Shown here: piece by piece, positions 4,386-10,627 of the stretch
Numbering within the stretch: the stretch's first letter is position 1
How the letters are laid out: each line of letters starts with the position of its first letter
Program-made: the position numbers and the translations under genes
Origin: Clostridia bacterium
GTDB lineage: Bacteria > Bacillota > Clostridia > Christensenellales > Aristaeellaceae
Reading direction: 5' to 3'
Length of the DNA stretch: 64,000 nt
Assembly (NCBI GenBank): GCA_017508975.1
Contig: JAFWQU010000012.1
Location: 1-64,000, forward strand
Notes under the pieces: generated by a model
Databases searched by the model: none
What the model was told of the DNA's origin: nothing
Seen by the model: only the letters and a program-made list of their open reading frames with translations

Positions 4386-4730
4386 GGATTTCGCGGCCTG
4401 CGGGCCGCGACCAGGTCCGCAGCCGGACTGGCAGCTTTCCGATCGCGCTTTGGACCTTCGGATGCATGTTGTTGCTCGACTTGCAGATTTTGATTGAGAA
4501 CAGTATAAAGAGGTTCCGCGCCTGCGGGCGCGGCCAGAGGCTTTCCGATCGCCTCTGGACTCTTCGGGTGCGACCTTTTGGTGATTTTGGGGATTTGAAT
4601 AGGAACGGCCTCTCTGTCGCTGATGCGGCATCGCCCCAGCAAGCTGGGGCGGCAGAAGAGTGGTTCCGCGCCTGCGGGCGCGGCCAGAGGCTTTCCGATC
4701 GCCTCTGGACTCTTCGGGTGCGACCTTTTG
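4386..4730. repeat. Three inverted-orientation copies of the 139-bp-type element plus a GCCCCAGC palindrome
   Basis: Copy at 4386-4506 is degenerate and ends with a recognisable element terminus (TTGAGAACAGTAT). Copies at 4510-4579 and 4661-4730 carry the CCAGAGGC/GCCTCTGG and CCGCGCC/GGCGCGG hairpins. The 70 bases from 4512 and the 70 bases from 4662 read identical. Between them, 4606-4656 holds the second repeat family with the palindrome GCCCCAGCAAGCTGGGGC. No gene is credible here. Confidence 0.85.
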
Positions 4731-4752
4731 GAGAGTTCTGGCTTTTCGGCAT

Positions 4753-4960
4753 GAGAACCCTCCCCCGCCCCTCCCTACCGAGGGAGGGGAGAGGGCGCGC
4801 GGTCAGCTCGAGAAATTTCTGCTTGAATTGGAGCCCTTACGGTTGAAGAGCAGATCGTGAACGGTTTCTCTTGATGAATTTCGGATGCTGTCCGTAAACC
4901 CGGACAGCAGGGCTGCGGCACACCCCTCCCTCGGTAGGGAGGGGTCGGTGTAGGGTTCTC
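4753..4960. repeat. Inverted-repeat element (208 bp) with palindromic ends
   Basis: The left end GAGAACCCTCCCCC and right end AGGGTTCTC are inverted. Each arm also contains its own hairpin, CCCCTCCCT-accg-AGGGAGGGG on the left and CCCCTCCCT-cggt-AGGGAGGGG on the right. A second full copy lies at 59211-59419, and left halves lie at 32026-32064 and 55219-55258. The inside has no gene. Confidence 0.8.
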
Positions 4961-4969
4961 CTGCGCTGA

Positions 4970-5287
4970 ATATCCCAAAGCCACCAAAAGAGTGCATTCC
5001 GAAGGTCCAGGGCGATCGGAAAGCCCTGGTCGCGCCCGCAGGCGCGAAATCTCTTTGCCCGAAGGGCGGAGGGGCCGTCTCTGTCAAGCTTTCCCCGAAC
5101 CTCCAAAAGAGGATGCTGCCGAAGGTTCAGGGCGATCGGAAAGCCCTGGTCGCGCCCGCAGGCGCGATATCTCTTTGCCCGAAGGGCGGAGGACCCATCC
5201 TTGATATCCCCAAGCCACCAAATAGGTGCATCGCCGAAGGTCCAGGGCGATCGGAAAGCCCTGGTCGCGCCCGCAGGCGCGAAATCT
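4970..5287. repeat. Three tandem head-to-tail copies of the hairpin repeat
   Basis: Cores at 4999-5051, 5119-5171 and 5234-5287 each read CCGAAGGTCC, then the CCAGGGC/GCCCTGG hairpin, then the TCGCGCC/GGCGCGA hairpin. They are spaced about 118 bp apart with similar linkers containing CCAAAAGA or CCAAATAG. The last copy ends 105 bp before the WYL gene. Confidence 0.88.
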
Positions 5288-5392
5288 CTTTGCCCAATTT
5301 TCCAAAACTGCTTGAAGAAACCGCGCTTTCCATGCATAATGGCATCAGACAAAAAATGGATGGGAAACCCGTCGAAGAGAGGAGGGAAGCGC

Positions 5393-6640
5393 GTGGCCTA
5401 CAGTGAGCTGATCAAAAATTTCAGCCGGATCCGCGAGTATATGCGGGAGTTTTATCTGTATGGGTTCAAGAGCCGGGATGAGTACGCAACGCGCCGGAGC
5501 GGGCGCTCCTATGACGATGAGCGGCGGCGGCTGGAGAGCTGGCTGGGCGACGCCATGCGCTTCCGGCAGACGACGGAGGGAAAGAACGTCTTCATCTCGA
5601 TCGACACCCGCGTCTCCCGCCACAACCCGCTCTACGCCGCATGGAAAGCAAAGAGCTTCACCGACGGGGACATCACGCTGCACTTTGTCCTGTTCGACAT
5701 TCTGAGCGAGCCGGAGACCGCGCTGACCCTCGCGGAGCTGATGGAGCGGATCGACGGGTACCTGCAGGGCTTCCGGGAGCCGCGGATGTTCGACGAGTCC
5801 ACCGTGCGCAAGAAGCTCAAGGAGTACGCGGACGAGGGCATCATCACAGCCGAAAGGGACGGGAAGACGGTCCGCTACCGCCGCGCCGGGGCGGAGATGC
5901 AGCCGGACTCGGACCTCCTGGACTTCTTCTCCGAGGTCGCGCCCTGCGGGGTGATCGGCTCCTACCTGCTGGACAAGCAGGGCGCGCACGACGGGCACTT
6001 CGCCTTCAAGCACCACTACATCACTTCCGCGCTGGACAGTGAGGTGGTCTGTTCGCTGTTCCTGGCGATGCGGGCAAAGCGCGCTGTCACGCTGGAGATT
6101 GCCTGGCGGCGGCGCGAGTGGATCCGGGAGCGCCAGGCGGTGCCGCTCCGGCTGATGGTGAGCGCGCAGAGCGGGAGGCAGTATCTGATGGTCTACCTGC
6201 CCAGCATCCAGCGGATCCAATCCGTGCGGACCGACGCCATCCTGTCCGTCCGCCCGGGGGCGGTCTGCGACCGCTTTGACGAGCTGCGGCAGACGCTGGA
6301 CGGCATGGCGCCGCACCTGTGGGGGATCAGCACCCAGGGCCGGACCGGCCAGCGGCTGGAGCACGTGGAGTTCACGGTCCACTACGAAAAGAACGAGCCG
6401 CACATCCACGCGCGGCTGGAGCGGGAGAAGCGCTGCGGGACGGTGGAGCGGCTGGACGGAAACACCAGCCGCTTCTCCGCGGACGTCTACGACGCCGGCG
6501 AGCTGATGCCCTGGATCCGCACCTTCCTCTGCCGGATCACATCCATCTCCTTCTCCGATCCGCTGCTGGAGGCGCGCTTCCGGGAGGACCTGCGGGAGAT
6601 GTACGCGCAGTACGGCCTGGAAGGGGGTGCGGAGGCGTGA
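5393..6640 (+). CDS. WYL-domain protein (putative regulator), first of pair
   Basis: A 415-residue protein. After an N-terminal region (1-120) comes a winged-helix-like segment with FDESTVRKKLKEYADEGII (about 140-160), then a WYL-type domain around 210-320 with RLMVSAQSGRQYLMVYLP and an IQRIQSVRTDAI strand. WYL domains are known ligand-sensing modules in bacterial regulators, often binding nucleic acid or nucleotides. The start is GTG at 5393, 6 bases after GGAGGG (5381-5386). The stop overlaps the next gene by 4 bp, so the pair is translationally coupled. By position it is the likely controller of the RtcB operon downstream; that role is inferred. Confidence 0.82.
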   Translation: MAYSELIKNFSRIREYMREFYLYGFKSRDEYATRRSGRSYDDERRRLESWLGDAMRFRQTTEGKNVFISIDTRVSRHNPLYAAWKAKSFTDGDITLHFVLFDILSEPETALTLAELMERIDGYLQGFREPRMFDESTVRKKLKEYADEGIITAERDGKTVRYRRAGAEMQPDSDLLDFFSEVAPCGVIGSYLLDKQGAHDGHFAFKHHYITSALDSEVVCSLFLAMRAKRAVTLEIAWRRREWIRERQAVPLRLMVSAQSGRQYLMVYLPSIQRIQSVRTDAILSVRPGAVCDRFDELRQTLDGMAPHLWGISTQGRTGQRLEHVEFTVHYEKNEPHIHARLEREKRCGTVERLDGNTSRFSADVYDAGELMPWIRTFLCRITSISFSDPLLEARFREDLREMYAQYGLEGGAEA

Positions 6641-7542
6641 TATTCAGCGAACTGTACAGCGCTTACTACAACACCGTGGCGGCGGTCCTGAAGGCCGCCT
6701 GCGGACACCCGCTGGAGAAGGGGGAGCTGCGGCGCATCATCGGCGAGAAGGCGTTCGGGGAGAGCGCGCTGAACATCGCGCCTGCGCTGGCGGAGGAGCG
6801 CTGGCAGCTCCTGCGGGCGGACGGCACGACGCCGATCGCGCACGCGCCCACGATGCCGCTGACCGCGCTGCAGCTGCGCTGGCTGAAGGCGATCTCCCTG
6901 GATCCCCGGGTCCGGCTGTTCCCGGAGGCGGTCCCCGACCTCCCGGACGTGGAGCCGCTGTTCACGCCGGAGGACTATACGGTGTTCGACCGGTACGCGG
7001 ACGGGGATCCCTACGCGGACGAGGCCTATATCCGGCACTTCCGGCTGATCCTCCGCGCGATCCGCGAGCGGACGCCGCTGGAGATCGAGAGCGCCACCGG
7101 CAGGGGCAGCCGGGTGCGGCGCTGCCTGATGCCCGAGTATCTGGAGTACTCGGAGAAGGACGATAAGTTCCGGCTCATCGGCTCCGGCTGCCGCTGGGGA
7201 AACACGATCAACCTGGGCCGGATCCTTGCCTGCGCGCCGAGCGAACGGCTGCTCGAGCCAGGCCCTGCGGCGCGGCCGGAGCAGGCGGCGGTGGAGCTGG
7301 AGCTCCGGGACCGGCGGAACGCGCTTGAGCGGGTGATGATGCACTTCGCGCACTTTGAGAAGGAGGCGGAGCGGCTGGACGGGGACCGCTACCGGCTCCG
7401 CGTGATCTACGACCGCGAGGACGAGACCGAGATGGTGATCCGCATCCTCGCCTTCGGGCCGATGCTCCGCGTGACGGCCCCGGAGGATTTCGCGGAGCTG
7501 ATCCGGGAGCGCCTGCGCCGGCAGAAAATGTTTCTTTCGTAA
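6637..7542 (+). CDS. WYL-domain protein, second of pair
   Basis: A 301-residue protein starting at GTG 6637, which overlaps the previous stop (GTGA). It has an N-terminal HTH-like region and a clear WYL core: TPLEIESATG, RRCLMPEYLEYSEKDDKFRL and NTINLGRILACAP around residues 145-210, with a C-terminal beta-alpha extension. Paired WYL proteins encoded in tandem often work together. It lies 294 bp upstream of the vWA gene, the gap being filled by a structured RNA. It probably senses a ligand made when RNA is damaged, but no ligand can be read from the sequence. Confidence 0.82.
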   Translation: MIFSELYSAYYNTVAAVLKAACGHPLEKGELRRIIGEKAFGESALNIAPALAEERWQLLRADGTTPIAHAPTMPLTALQLRWLKAISLDPRVRLFPEAVPDLPDVEPLFTPEDYTVFDRYADGDPYADEAYIRHFRLILRAIRERTPLEIESATGRGSRVRRCLMPEYLEYSEKDDKFRLIGSGCRWGNTINLGRILACAPSERLLEPGPAARPEQAAVELELRDRRNALERVMMHFAHFEKEAERLDGDRYRLRVIYDREDETEMVIRILAFGPMLRVTAPEDFAELIRERLRRQKMFLS

Positions 7543-7565
7543 ATCGAGTTCGCAGCTTTTTTTCC

Positions 7566-7594
7566 GTGATTCCCTCCCGGAAACATGGTAGCAT
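7566..7594 (+). promoter_or_regulatory. Possible extended -10 promoter for the Y-like RNA
   Basis: TGgTAGCAT (7586-7594) is an extended -10, with a weak -35 (GTGATT at 7566-7571) 17 bp upstream. The predicted start near 7601 coincides with the first base of the first RNA hairpin, which is why it is listed. Weak on its own. Confidence 0.4.
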
Positions 7595-7599
7595 TCGAA

Positions 7600-7806
7600 C
7601 CGTGAGGAGGAGATCCTCACCCGGAGACGCTCACAGCCGAGAAAAAGTCCAGGCGGGCCGCCCATCTTTCGGGAGGGGCCCCGCATCCAGCCGAAAGGCA
7701 GCGTCTCGTCCTTCAAAGGCACCAGCAGCAATCTCTGCAGCTTACGGTCAGCAGCTGACCCCGGTCAGCCGTGTGGGTTCGAATCCCACTGTACAGGGTG
7801 CCTTGT
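7600..7806 (+). ncRNA. Y RNA-like (YrlA-type) RNA with tRNA-like module
   Basis: A structured non-coding stretch between the second WYL gene and the vWA gene. Visible helices: GTGAGGA/TCCTCAC (7602-7608 with 7614-7620); a long stem GAGACGCT/AGCGTCTC (7624-7631 with 7700-7707) enclosing a GCGGGCC/GGCCCCGC hairpin and a GCC-GAAA-GGC tetraloop hairpin; then a tRNA-like module closed by AAGGCACC/GGTGCCTT (7716-7723 with 7797-7804). Within the module are a D-like arm GCAG/CTGC (7725-7738), a central arm ACGG/CCGT (7744-7772), and a perfect T arm GTGGG-TTCGAAT-CCCAC (7773-7789). Bacterial Y RNAs bind Ro60/TROVE proteins and carry such tRNA mimics. No CCA end and no normal anticodon arm, so not a working tRNA. 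Exact ends are uncertain. Confidence 0.75.
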
Positions 7807-7836
7807 CCCGAATGCTTCCGTTAAGGAGGGAACCCC

Positions 7837-9297
7837 ATGTCCATGCTTGATTTTATCCGGCAGCTGACGAACGTCACCCGGACGGAGAACGGCGCCGTGA
7901 CCCCGCGGACCACCCGCTCCGACTGTCTGGATCTCTTTGCGACGATCGGCGCGCTGCGCTCCGCGGAGGAGCGCGAGATTATCCGCCGCTTCCAGCTCGC
8001 CTGGGCGGAGGACCGCGACCTGGCGGTCCGGACGCTGTTCTACGCGCGGGACGTGCGCGGCGGACTCGGTGAGCGCCGGACCTTCCGTGTGCTGCTGCGC
8101 TATCTGGCTGAGCAGGAGCCGGCGACCGTCCGGCGCAACCTGCGGGCGGTCAGCGAGTATGGGCGCTGGGACGACCTGCTGGTGCTGATCGGCACCCCCT
8201 GCGAGGCGGACGCGGTCAACCTGATCGCGGCGCAGCTCCGCGAGGACCTGGAGCGCGACGCGCGGGACGAGCCCATCTCGCTCCTGGCCAAGTGGCTTCC
8301 GTCCGTCAACGCCTCCAACCCGGAGACGGTGCGGACCGCGCGGCGGATCACCCGCGCCCTCGGGATCTCGGACGCGGTCTACCGCCGGATGCTCACCCGG
8401 CTGCGGACGCGGCTCCGCCTGCTGGAGAACAGCCTCCGCGAGCGGGATTATACCTTCGACTACCAGGCGCAGCCCTCCCGCGCGATGTTCGTCTACCGCC
8501 GGGCGTTCCTGCGCAACGACGGGGAGCGCTACCGGGCTTATATGCAGCGGGTGGCGGAGGGCCGCGCGACGCTGCACACCGGGTCCCTGAACCCCTGCGA
8601 CCTGGTGGGCCAGGCGCTGGACTTCCGCGGGACGCCGGCGGAGCGGCAGGTGCTGGACACCACCTGGCGGGCGCTGGACGACTGGACAGACGGCCGCAAC
8701 GCGCTGTGCGTGGTGGACACCTCCAGCTCCATGTTCTGGACCGGGAACCCCCGCCCCTTCGCGGTGGCGATGTCCCTGGGCCTGTACTTCGCGGAGCGGA
8801 ACCGCGGCATCTTCCGCAACAGCTTCATCACCTTCTCCGACACCCCCCGGCTGATTGAGATCAAGGGGCAGGATCTGGTGGACCGCGTGCGGTACTGCAC
8901 GAACTTCTCCGAGGTGGGCTCCACCAATATCCAGGCGGTCTTCGAGCTGGTGCTCCGCGCGGCGGTGCTGCACCGGGTGCCCCGGTCGGAGATGCCGGAG
9001 ACGCTGTACATCATCAGCGACATGGAGTTCAACGTCTGCTCCCGCAACGCGTCGATGAGCAACTTCGAGTACGCCCGCCTGCTGTACGCGCAGCACGGCT
9101 ACCGGCTGCCGGACCTGGTGTTCTGGAACGTCCAGAGCCGCAATTCGCAGCAGCCGGTCACCCGGGATGAGCGCGGCGTCGCGCTGGTCAGCGGCTACAC
9201 GCCCCGCCTGTTCGAGCAGGTGATCACGGGCTCGACTCCTTATGACATGATGCTTCAGGTGCTCAACGGCGAGCGCTACCGCGCGCTTTGCGCCTGA
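7837..9297 (+). CDS. TROVE-related vWA protein (DUF2828-like), Ro60-type RNA-binding protein
   Basis: A 486-residue protein. The N-terminal two thirds are helical repeats with features of DUF2828/TROVE proteins: FYARDVRGGLGERRTFR (69-85), AKWLPSVNAS (151-160) and a YRRMLTRLRTRLRLLE segment (182-197). The C-terminal part is a von Willebrand A domain with MIDAS residues DTSSS (294-298), the distal threonine in GSTN (361-364) and ISDMEFN. Ro60 proteins are rings that bind Y RNA and misfolded or damaged RNA. The start ATG 7837 follows AAGGAGGG. It sits between two tRNA-like RNAs and directly before rtcB, matching known TROVE-Y RNA-RtcB operons such as that of Salmonella. RNA binding is inferred from family and context. 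Confidence 0.85.
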   Translation: MSMLDFIRQLTNVTRTENGAVTPRTTRSDCLDLFATIGALRSAEEREIIRRFQLAWAEDRDLAVRTLFYARDVRGGLGERRTFRVLLRYLAEQEPATVRRNLRAVSEYGRWDDLLVLIGTPCEADAVNLIAAQLREDLERDARDEPISLLAKWLPSVNASNPETVRTARRITRALGISDAVYRRMLTRLRTRLRLLENSLRERDYTFDYQAQPSRAMFVYRRAFLRNDGERYRAYMQRVAEGRATLHTGSLNPCDLVGQALDFRGTPAERQVLDTTWRALDDWTDGRNALCVVDTSSSMFWTGNPRPFAVAMSLGLYFAERNRGIFRNSFITFSDTPRLIEIKGQDLVDRVRYCTNFSEVGSTNIQAVFELVLRAAVLHRVPRSEMPETLYIISDMEFNVCSRNASMSNFEYARLLYAQHGYRLPDLVFWNVQSRNSQQPVTRDERGVALVSGYTPRLFEQVITGSTPYDMMLQVLNGERYRALCA

Positions 9298-9307
9298 GGC
9301 CCAAGGA

Positions 9308-9384
9308 AAGGCACGCACAGCAATAACCTGCAAATACCTTTTAAGTATTACGGAGCCCCGAGCTCCAGCAAAACAACGTGCCTT
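9308..9384 (+). ncRNA. Second tRNA-like RNA or leader structure with a Lys-type anticodon loop
   Basis: Lies 10 bp after the vWA gene stop and 34 bp before the rtcB ATG. The closing helix AAGGCACG/CGTGCCTT (9308-9315 with 9377-9384) repeats that of the upstream RNA except for its last pair. Inside are a D-like arm CAG-caataac-CTG (9318-9330), an arm with exactly 5 bp and a 7-base loop (AATAC-CTTTTAA-GTATT, 9333-9349), and a third hairpin GGAGC-CCCGA-GCTCC (9352-9366). The 7-base loop equals the anticodon loop of tRNA-Lys(UUU), with U33 and A37 in place. There is no T loop and no CCA. It may be an excised RNA or a cis-acting leader of rtcB. Confidence 0.7.
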
Positions 9385-9418
9385 GTATGAACCAATTCCG
9401 GCGGAAGGAGGAGCTGCC

Positions 9419-10627
9419 ATGCTGGAAATCAAGGGAAAGTTCGCGACAGCGATCTGTTACGCGAAGATTATCGAGGAAGAGGCGATCGAGCAGATCCGCC
9501 GGATGTGCGACACCGAGCTGACTGAGGGATGCCGGGTGCGCATCATGCCGGACGTGCACGCGGGAAAGGGATGCACCATCGGAACCACCATGACCGTGCG
9601 GGACAAGGCGTGTCCGAACATTGTGGGCGTGGACATCGGATGCGGCATGTACACCGTGGCGCTGGCGGAGCGCGAGCTCGACTTTGCGCGCGTCGACGAG
9701 GCGTGCCATTTCATCCCTTCCGGCATGAAGGTCTGGGAGGGACGCGTGGAGCACTTTGACCTGACCGGGCTGCGCTGCTACCGGGAGCTGCTGGACAGCC
9801 GCCGCCTGGAGCGCTCCCTCGGAACCCTCGGAGGGGGAAACCATTTCATCGAGATCGACCGGGCGTCCGACGGGGCGTATTACCTGGTGATCCACTCCGG
9901 AAGCCGGAACCTCGGAAAGCAGGTGGCGGAGTACTACCAGCATCTGGCGGTGGAGCTGCACCAGGGGAAGGAGGAGTACTTCCACCGGCGGGACGAGCTC
10001 ATCCGCACCTACAAGGAGCAGGGACGTCGCAGCGAGATTCAGGAGGCGATCCAGGCGCTCGCGGAGGAATTCCGCGGACGGGAGCCGCTGGTGCCGGAGG
10101 ACCTCTGCTGGCTGCACGGATCCTATCTGGAGGACTATCTGCACGACGTGGAGATCTGCCAGCGCTTCGCGCGCCGGAGCCGGGAGCTCATGGCGGAGAT
10201 CATCCTTCAGCGGACCGGAATGACCGCGCTCGGATCGTTCCACACGATCCACAACTATATCGACACGGACGAGATGATCCTCCGCAAGGGAGCGATCGCG
10301 GCGCACGCGGGGGAGCAGGTGCTGATCCCGATCAACATGCGGGACGGATCGATCCTCGCGGTGGGACGCGGATCCCCCGAGTGGAACTACTCCGCGCCGC
10401 ACGGAGCGGGACGCCTGATGTCCCGCGGAAAGGCGAAGGGAACCCTGGACCTGGAGGCATACCGCGAGGCGATGGAGGGGATCTACACCACCTCCGTCAA
10501 CGAGAACACCCTGGACGAGGCGCCGATGGCGTACAAGTCCCTGGAGGACATCCTCGATGTGGTGCAGGAGGCGGTGGATGTGCTCGACATCCTGAAGCCC
10601 GTGTACAATTTCAAGGCGTCGGAATAA
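9419..10627 (+). CDS. rtcB: RNA-splicing ligase RtcB
   Basis: GTP- and Mn-dependent ligase joining RNA 2',3'-cyclic phosphate or 3'-phosphate ends to 5'-OH ends; repairs cleaved tRNA. The 402-residue protein has DVHAGKG (45-51), VDIGCG with metal ligands D72 and C75, GGGNHF (138-143), HSGSRNLG (159-166), and the guanylylated histidine H328 in PHGAGR. The chosen ATG (9419) follows GGAGGA (9406-9411); an upstream in-frame TTG at 9383 lies inside the tRNA-like structure and was rejected. Glycine codons are strongly skewed: 25 GGA, 6 GGG, 3 GGC, 0 GGT, unlike the neighbouring genes. Short, about 400-residue RtcB forms are common in bacteria. Confidence 0.96.
   Translation: MLEIKGKFATAICYAKIIEEEAIEQIRRMCDTELTEGCRVRIMPDVHAGKGCTIGTTMTVRDKACPNIVGVDIGCGMYTVALAERELDFARVDEACHFIPSGMKVWEGRVEHFDLTGLRCYRELLDSRRLERSLGTLGGGNHFIEIDRASDGAYYLVIHSGSRNLGKQVAEYYQHLAVELHQGKEEYFHRRDELIRTYKEQGRRSEIQEAIQALAEEFRGREPLVPEDLCWLHGSYLEDYLHDVEICQRFARRSRELMAEIILQRTGMTALGSFHTIHNYIDTDEMILRKGAIAAHAGEQVLIPINMRDGSILAVGRGSPEWNYSAPHGAGRLMSRGKAKGTLDLEAYREAMEGIYTTSVNENTLDEAPMAYKSLEDILDVVQEAVDVLDILKPVYNFKASE

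Follow-up and report, generated by a model that had tools for sequence, protein, structure and literature searches.

What are the small tRNA-like RNAs that lie between the genes of an rtcB operon, and what might they do there? The question is raised by positions 5,393–10,627 of a 64,000-nucleotide stretch of DNA from a Clostridia bacterium (GenBank assembly GCA_017508975.1, contig JAFWQU010000012.1), referred to here as the window, whose genome assembly is 66% complete. One strand (+) carries, in order, two WYL genes (WYL1 and WYL2), a gene for a DUF2828 protein with a vWA domain (the vWA protein), and rtcB; two RNAs, RNA-A and RNA-B, lie between WYL2 and the vWA gene, and a third, RNA-C, between the vWA gene and rtcB. 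A sequence-only reading of the locus had described an RNA-repair-type operon with two WYL proteins, a TROVE-related vWA protein, RtcB, and two tRNA-like RNAs, and all of these genes were found on the + strand, near the positions it gave. Absent from that reading were a clamp common to the RNAs, their arrangement in arrays, their mimicry of anticodon stem-loops and of ribosomal RNA (rRNA), and their counterparts in phages.

A common clamp defines the RNAs

RNA-B (7716–7805, + strand) and RNA-C (9308–9385, + strand) have a common outer clamp, AAGGCAC-NN-[AG]CAGCAA...GTGCCTTG, and both were recovered by a scanner that demands pairing and by a covariance model, R1 (E 5.4e-5 for RNA-B and 6.6e-7 for RNA-C). 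The same design is seen in the tandem units of related loci, where a 5' arm AAGRYRC is followed by two bases, [AG]CAGCAA, a variable core, and then the complement of the first arm with a G (consensus AAGRYRC-NN-ACAGCAA...GYRYCTTG); we refer to such units as clamp RNAs. The related loci (L010–L089) are the best 80 of at least 532 relatives (591 stretches) from a scan of genome_contigs with an alignment of vWA proteins, and contig ends cut some of them. Across L002–L089 (1.14 Mb) the scanner gave 270 matches on the + strand, 6 on the – strand, and 2 after local shuffling; L004 lies in reversed orientation, and its – strand matches are real clamp RNAs. With repeats and nested matches removed there are 252 clamp RNAs in 75 of the 80 loci, one to eight in each, a set that includes a few probable false matches away from the array (e.g., L019 1469 and L066 2880). 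Of 257 RNAs placed relative to the vWA gene, 239 are upstream of it by no more than 1.5 kb, and a further 14 are within 5 kb.

Pair counts at stem positions 1–7 taken from the scanner set are biased, since the scanner itself requires pairing; a test that starts from the 5' motif alone is free of that bias. By this motif, 228 sites were found in the 80 loci, 221 of them no more than 3 kb upstream of the vWA gene and none on the – strand. At 215 of the 228 sites the exact complement of the site's own arm, with the G, lies within 260 nt, compared to 10.2% for a borrowed arm (mean of 200 shuffles, maximum 16.9%). With eleven arm types that occur two or more times each, the clamp stem covaries. Model R1, trained on 32 short RNAs of other loci and with a rough E-value calibration, matched the 80 loci 214 times at E≤0.01, always on the + strand (32 of these matches are the training sequences). 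Among 60 related genomes it matched five, all belonging to the seven with a vWA homologue and with the match adjoining that gene (Fisher 3.8e-6). As a marker by itself, the pattern AAGRYRCNNACAGCAA was rejected as unspecific, being found in 54 of 300 genomes, against 21 matches in 19 of 300 for a reversed control; three of the 54 that have no vWA homologue (G004, G018, and G025) were inspected, and their single matches have no partner arm.

RNA-A (7623–7708, + strand) is a divergent candidate, which neither R1 (at E≤1) nor the scanner finds. It has a 7-bp end stem beginning GAG (7624–7630 with 7701–7707), the motif ACAGC, continued as ACAGCCG where others read ACAGCAA, and a hairpin like that of its relatives, and it was kept as a candidate because genome G006 has a regular unit at that place with a similar 3' hairpin. 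Where two tRNA-like RNAs had been proposed from the letters, tRNA-like RNAs are indeed present, and their count is three, RNA-A having candidate status. Folding z-scores are –3.98 for RNA-C, –2.34 for RNA-B, –2.32 for RNA-A, and –2.94 for the stretch 7540–7840; that of the wider stretch 9290–9421 is unexceptional (–0.25). In the window, ARAGORN called no tRNA, and Rfam gave nothing at its gathering threshold. In L024, a block of three clamp RNAs looks, by eye, duplicated and diverged (7199–7520 and 7636–7956), which suggests how arrays grow.

The cores resemble tRNAs, anticodon arms, and a segment of 23S rRNA

Core sequences vary far more than the clamp does: in an all-against-all comparison of 255 cores (the 252 and those of the three window RNAs), 140 are singletons. 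A T-arm is found in 62 of the 252 and is absent from the other 190. In 39 it lies near the 3' clamp arm, mostly, as judged by eye, within a tRNA-like fold in normal order, as in RNA-B, whose T-arm is perfect (GTGGG-TTCGAAT-CCCAC, 7773–7789). In the remaining 23 it is internal; by eye, 16 of these run on into an acceptor and a D-arm, which makes them tRNAs in circularly permuted order with the opening at the anticodon, six are of the RNA-C type with an inserted T-arm, and one (L079) is nearer the normal-order kind.

The core of RNA-C holds an anticodon stem-loop of the tRNA-Lys(UUU) type, AATAC-CTTTTAA-GTATT, at 9333–9349. In an alignment of RNA-C with ten RNAs picked from the core comparison and by eye, the loop CTTTTAA is found in 7 of the 11; the stem of L080 is two-pair compensated (AATCA/TGATT), L055 and L075 have Glu-type loops, and L056 and L063 depart. 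A strict rule for anticodon stem-loops (5 bp and a 7-nt loop YUNNNRN) was applied to 191 cores, i.e., the 190 without a T-arm and RNA-C. It was satisfied by 39, whereas 100 dinucleotide shuffles gave 2.7 on average and never more than 7. Of these 39 stem-loops, 26 have exactly the loop of one of the 639 ARAGORN tRNA genes in the loci (shuffles: mean 0.3, maximum 3, 200 runs). A relaxed rule gave 59 of 191, against a shuffle mean of 8.3 (maximum 14, 30 runs), 14 for reverse complements, and 11 for segments of the vWA gene. The recurrent anticodons are those of Lys(UUU/CUU), Ser(UGA), Met, Asn, Tyr, and Arg(UCU), and in 13 of the 14 loci with at least two anticodon-loop RNAs the anticodons differ.

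Four further cores match 23S rRNA near 1935–1965 (E. coli numbering): L087 (90.6% over 32 nt), L039 (24/24), L068 (21/21), and L020 (19/19), with E from 1.7e-7 to 4.5e-4; shuffles gave none at or below 0.001 in 10 runs, and reverse complements none at or below 0.01. A fifth core, L027, is weak (90% over 20 nt, E 0.009): taken alone it does not rise above chance, as shuffles give 0–2 rows below 0.01 per run, and it was counted as 23S-like for its layout only. In L020, L039, L068, and L027 the GAAATT strand comes after the hairpin, whereas in 23S rRNA it comes before; this order is another permutation. The segment is what we take to be helix 71, and a mycobacterial MazF cuts 23S rRNA near 1940. 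Many of the rows labelled 'osc23S' are tRNA genes in the 1.5-kb flanks of L191, and these were left out of the 23S count. Compared to E. coli 16S or 5S rRNA, the cores gave nothing below E 0.05, and a search of the cores for exact strings found none of the sarcin-ricin loop, helix 69, the decoding site, the peptidyl transferase centre at 2451, the A-loop, or the anti-Shine–Dalgarno sequence, and one 8-mer of the P-loop.

With the T-arms and a list of tRNA loops put together, 107 of the 252 cores have one or the other, and 112 when the five 23S-like cores are included; the list is generous, drawing on both the strict and relaxed sets, with four loops from outside the reference tRNAs and one stem mismatch allowed. 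A further recurring core type, CTGAATRGGCTA...AACCYTATCAA, is seen in L060 (3831–3912), with look-alikes in L018, L027, L050, L051, L057, and L068. The L060 core matches the 23S rRNA of Oscillibacter near 901–944 (81.8% over 44 nt, E 3.6e-7); this helix-38-like core was not counted as a mimic and is kept as a lead only, the six look-alikes having just short strings in common.

The vWA protein appears remotely Ro60-like and the RNAs recall YrlA

The gene at 7837–9297 (+ strand) encodes the 486-residue vWA protein, which has matches to PF25043/DUF7788 (1.9e-39) and PF11443/DUF2828 (4.6e-32) and to phrog_850, 'RNA-binding protein', at 3.2e-128. Its proposed relation to TROVE proteins finds support as a remote one: hhalign of 167 DUF2828 with 8 TROVE proteins, TROVE being the only family compared, gave 97.8% with E 7.9e-13 over 372 columns and in the same domain order, and supersedes an earlier run with just three TROVE rows (9.3%). 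These alignments suggest that the vWA protein is remotely TROVE/Ro60-like. A single-protein query of viral_contigs returned no TROVE relatives.

On the RNA side, the Rfam model of the Y RNA YrlA (RF02553) matches permuted clamp RNAs, the best in L032 (47.7 bits, E 1.2e-7) and others in L043, L014, and L080. In all there are nine matches in the five loci given, with none in L059, and all are under the gathering score of 69; the RNAs of the window have no RF02553 match. Two other RNA models gave sub-threshold matches within tRNA/clamp neighbourhoods, GOLLD in L014 at 6304–6740 (65 of 150 bits) and ROOL in L176, from Listeria phage LP-048, at 1460–2011 (90 of 99.1 bits).

Clamp RNAs accompany the phage relatives of the vWA gene

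The viral loci analyzed are 80 of at least 377 DUF2828 loci in IMG/VR, near-identical contigs (e.g., L097/L098) included. They contain 110 clamp matches on the + strand and 1 on the – strand. The complement of the site's own arm is found at 56 of 72 viral 5'-motif sites, compared to 6.0% for another site's arm; after removal of identical ones there are 53 viral cores, and 10 of their 11 strict stem-loops equal real tRNA loops.

A DUF2828 homologue is present in 682 INPHARED records, and five of these regions were examined. Among the tRNA genes of FelixO1 lie four clamp RNAs, whose stem is changed (AGACC) and one of which has a permuted tRNA-like fold; SEP9 has three, LP-048 three, and LeBron about three, while in phiM7 there are no more than one or two, and these are weak. 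The feature tables of FelixO1, LeBron, LP-048, and SEP9 have no RNA annotated at the clamp RNA sites. The phage 'Ro-like RNA binding protein' (phrog_850; LeBron gp53, FelixO1 ORF42) is of the same family as the vWA protein of the window and has clamp RNAs adjoining, and the clamp RNA beside the LeBron protein scores 39.8 bits with RF02553. Unlike the window operon, the 80 viral loci contain no relative of the window's WYL proteins or RtcB; in Listeria phage LP-048 an RtcB is annotated 1.3 kb downstream. Three to six clamp RNAs, one with the Lys loop, are present on a Bacillus plasmid that also has a DNA-packaging gene.

Gene neighbourhood and regulation

WYL1 (5393–6640, + strand, 415 residues) is read from a GTG start, chosen because homologue alignments begin at that point, and overlaps WYL2 (6637–7542, + strand, 301 residues) by 4 nt. 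The assignment of both to WYL comes from PADLOC (9.4e-9 and 5.6e-9); Pfam and NCBIfam at 0.001 gave no WYL match for either. At E≤1 the Pfam WYL model matches 31 of 32 aligned WYL1 proteins, at best with 2.9e-9, and the window's WYL1 with just E 0.4. WYL1 has a winged-helix-like region at about residues 100–187, followed by WYL, and a profile of the 32 proteins matched in the PDB a 7p5x chain, 'transcriptional regulator-like protein' (0.0013), chains with an ArsR-type helix-turn-helix (0.012 and weaker), and PafC (0.15). From this architecture WYL1 looks like a DNA-binding WYL protein; in WYL2, no helix-turn-helix was recognised.

Between WYL2 and RNA-A lies a conserved promoter/operator-like block (7549–7595, + strand; TTCGCAGCTTTTTTTCCGTGATT...TAGCAT, with the –10-like element identified by eye). 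In the form TCGCARCTTTTTTNCC followed by a TATRAT-like box, it recurs on the + strand of 53 of the 80 related loci, on the – strand of one, and in none of the 80 viral loci, and in the printed list of its occurrences it stands mostly just ahead of the first RNA. With at most one mismatch it is found in 3 of 40 related genomes, each of which has a vWA homologue, and is absent from the other four vWA genomes of that set. WYL1 and WYL2 may act on this block. The view that WYL proteins fill the place of the regulator in this operon agrees with the WYL pair and with the genes scanned, among which no RtcR (CARF, sigma-54) was found, the WYL proteins being regulators instead.

RtcB (9419–10627, + strand, 402 residues) matches Pfam PF01139 over the domain (6.2e-55) and the NCBIfam RtcB models below their own cut-offs, and is the sole RtcB found in this 66%-complete genome. 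No RtcA match was obtained among the four operon proteins and three neighbours, the part of the genome that was searched for it.

Whether homologous loci keep these genes together was one of the points on which the sequence-only reading had staked its case. With matches longer than 150 residues counted, WYL1 and WYL2 are found in 45 of the 80 loci, RtcB in 39, and all of these in 28, so that the genes are kept together in many Clostridia; in 24 loci, some of them on short contigs, both the WYL pair and RtcB are missing around the vWA gene. The commonest full order is WYL1-WYL2-vWA-RtcB on one strand (20 loci). WYL2 is co-directional with the vWA gene in 39 loci, across a gap of 230–3753 nt that holds the RNAs and, in four loci, rtcB as well. 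The closest vWA relatives among the best 80 kept from genome_contigs come from metagenome-assembled genomes of Clostridia (74–76% identity), two of them from sheep rumen and omasum; these loci, L010–L012, have no RNAs, WYL genes, or RtcB in about 17 kb and keep the promoter block.

In L048, L053, and L071 there are 26–28 ARAGORN tRNA calls upstream of the vWA gene, some within clamp RNAs; rtcB lies among these calls in L053 and L071, and none was seen in the stretch of L048. L017 has, downstream of the full vWA match, a second, partial one at 8373–8613 (two pieces, query residues 24–107). The window's genome has a second DUF2828 gene (L194, G000:C5:42000-57000), 43% identical, with no clamp RNA, WYL, or RtcB relative within the 15 kb read. 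Upstream of WYL1, a palindrome-rich repeat (GCGATCGGAAAGCCCTGGTCGCGCCCGCAGGCGCG...) is present in three direct copies at 4434–5314, and a 49-nt piece of it has 33 BLAST matches over the whole window, on both strands.

What the clamp RNAs may do

The gene set, the clamp, the mimicry, and the phage counterparts can be read from the sequences themselves. As to their function, we give an even chance to an operon for RNA protection and repair around a Ro-like ribonucleoprotein (RNP), with the cores as RNase baits and RtcB for repair. The vWA protein would grip the clamp as Ro60 grips Y RNA, a binding that we infer by analogy; the cores would serve as baits for those ribonucleases whose cleavage sites lie in tRNA anticodon loops or in rRNA; RtcB would reseal cut tRNAs, or the baits; and WYL1 and WYL2 would sense a damage signal, upon which the promoter ahead of the RNAs would be switched on. 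Phages would carry the RNP part among their own tRNA genes, probably as counter-defence. In PMC7790460, the tRNA-like domain of YrlA is raised as a possible competitive inhibitor of a tRNA-cutting nuclease. The earlier interpretation, an inducible unit that senses and repairs cleaved RNA, keeps its gene set, the remote TROVE likeness, its tRNA-like RNAs, and, as an addition in its favour, a recurring promoter-like block; its count of RNAs has to be corrected, and conservation of its genes is partial.

Several results weigh against the bait reading. Most of the library is unexplained, since 145 of the 252 cores lack both a T-arm and any tRNA loop on the list (140 when the five 23S-like cores are subtracted). 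Clamp RNAs are missing where they might be expected: genomes G009 and G012 have a vWA homologue and no R1 match, and the scanner found no clamp RNA in 5 of the 80 loci, namely L010–L012, L046 (a sequence without the upstream side), and L047. The Ro60 likeness is uneven, as hhalign of the vWA part alone gave 96.8% and of the N-terminal half alone 1.0%, i.e., no TROVE match, so that homology outside the vWA domain is suggested by the joint alignment only; the Pfam TROVE model PF05731 matched none of 50 aligned vWA proteins, nor anything in the window's genome, and a PDB profile search with the vWA protein returned nothing at E≤10. Lastly, in the passages of PMC7790460 consulted, cleavage of YrlA in Salmonella by the tRNA-cutting nuclease of that system was not observed, nor were YrlA fragments.

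We put forward a stronger form of the bait reading tentatively, at somewhat less than an even chance: the arrays of bacteria and phages would be a heritable decoy library, in which one handle for a Ro-like protein presents a different toxin target with each RNA. Duplications and exchanges of cores would renew this library, which would protect broadly against RNase toxins and anticodon-nuclease defences, with RtcB mending the remaining cuts. It is with the same reserve, and rather more doubt than confidence, that we name the targets of such a library: the anticodon loops of Lys, Ser, Asn, Arg, Met, Tyr, and others, the permuted tRNAs opened at the anticodon, and the 23S segment near 1935–1965.

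The main rival, possible and on balance unlikely, is that clamp RNAs work as a Y-RNA tether or gate, docking the Ro-like protein to effectors such as PNPase, RtcB, or tRNA-processing enzymes, with the tRNA-like cores as docking modules. YrlA is a precedent, its basal stem holding Rsr and its tRNA-like domain holding PNPase (PMC8394870), and the permuted clamp RNAs match the YrlA model below threshold. However, a single effector needs neither up to eight RNAs with different cores per locus nor a panel of anticodons and 23S pieces, and baits are favoured because one effector leaves that panel of anticodons and rRNA pieces unexplained. Tethering and baiting could both hold.

It is improbable that the RNAs are instead damage sensors, i.e., trip-wires in which a cut mimic frees an end that WYL1 or WYL2 reads, turning the operon on. 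Many loci have WYL genes next to the RNAs, the block that precedes the RNAs is seldom found elsewhere, and activation of RtcR by cut tRNA, described in PMC7790460, offers a parallel; yet with no WYL relative of the window's type in the 80 viral loci, the RNAs there must act without WYL. A cis-acting leader, in which the folds would regulate how the vWA and rtcB genes that follow are expressed, would suit the placement of 239 of 257 RNAs within 1.5 kb upstream of the vWA gene, but we consider it very improbable given that a leader holds several closed units, that the window has a copy between the vWA gene and rtcB, that the cores are mostly unrelated to each other, and that SEP9 and FelixO1 have copies downstream of the vWA-family gene. 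Decayed genes of a tRNA array are barely credible, for while ARAGORN tRNA calls are often beside or within clamp RNAs, decay would not preserve a covarying end-stem with ACAGCAA, and 190 of the 252 cores have no T-arm.

Comparison with known systems

In the literature searched we found no account of DUF2828 with RtcB or of clamp RNAs, and parts may already be in print. If the bait reading is true, an RNA-based means of blunting many toxins at once would have been found, and each core would name a nuclease target. The widespread phage 'Ro-like' protein would gain RNA partners and its place in tRNA clusters a reason, and Ro/Y-RNA biology, concerned so far with one or two RNAs, would come to include arrays of as many as eight. 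The gene is present in cultured Clostridia, such as Oscillibacter valericigenes Sjm18-20, Pseudoflavonifractor phocaeensis An858, and Merdimmobilis hominis An559, and in phages of laboratory E. coli, such as JLBYU28 on K-12 MG1655, so these proposals can be tested now.

Phage tRNAs with changed anticodon loops have been proposed to evade anticodon nucleases, and tRNA-Lys is a target of AriB and PrrC (eLife 85183; PARIS/T5, PMC11455837). What such tRNAs would have in common with clamp RNAs is that they are an RNA means of surviving tRNA-cutting nucleases; the phage tRNAs are working tRNAs, whereas clamp RNAs are mostly fragments on a presumed protein-binding handle. YrlA resembles clamp RNAs in having an end-stem formed from its 5' and 3' ends and an internal tRNA-like module, and the available part of PMC8394870 makes no mention for it of the anticodon-loop and 23S mimics present in clamp RNAs. 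The closest operon is rsr-yrlBA-rtcBA of Salmonella (PMC7790460), which likewise joins a Ro-type protein, tRNA-mimicking Y-type RNAs, and RtcB in one unit. Compared to it, the window operon has no RtcA or RtcR among the genes scanned, two WYL regulators, DUF2828 in place of TROVE, and several RNAs with a different end-stem and diverse cores. The system extends the known Ro/Y-RNA/RtcB kind, and a decoy library, once proven, would be a new category.

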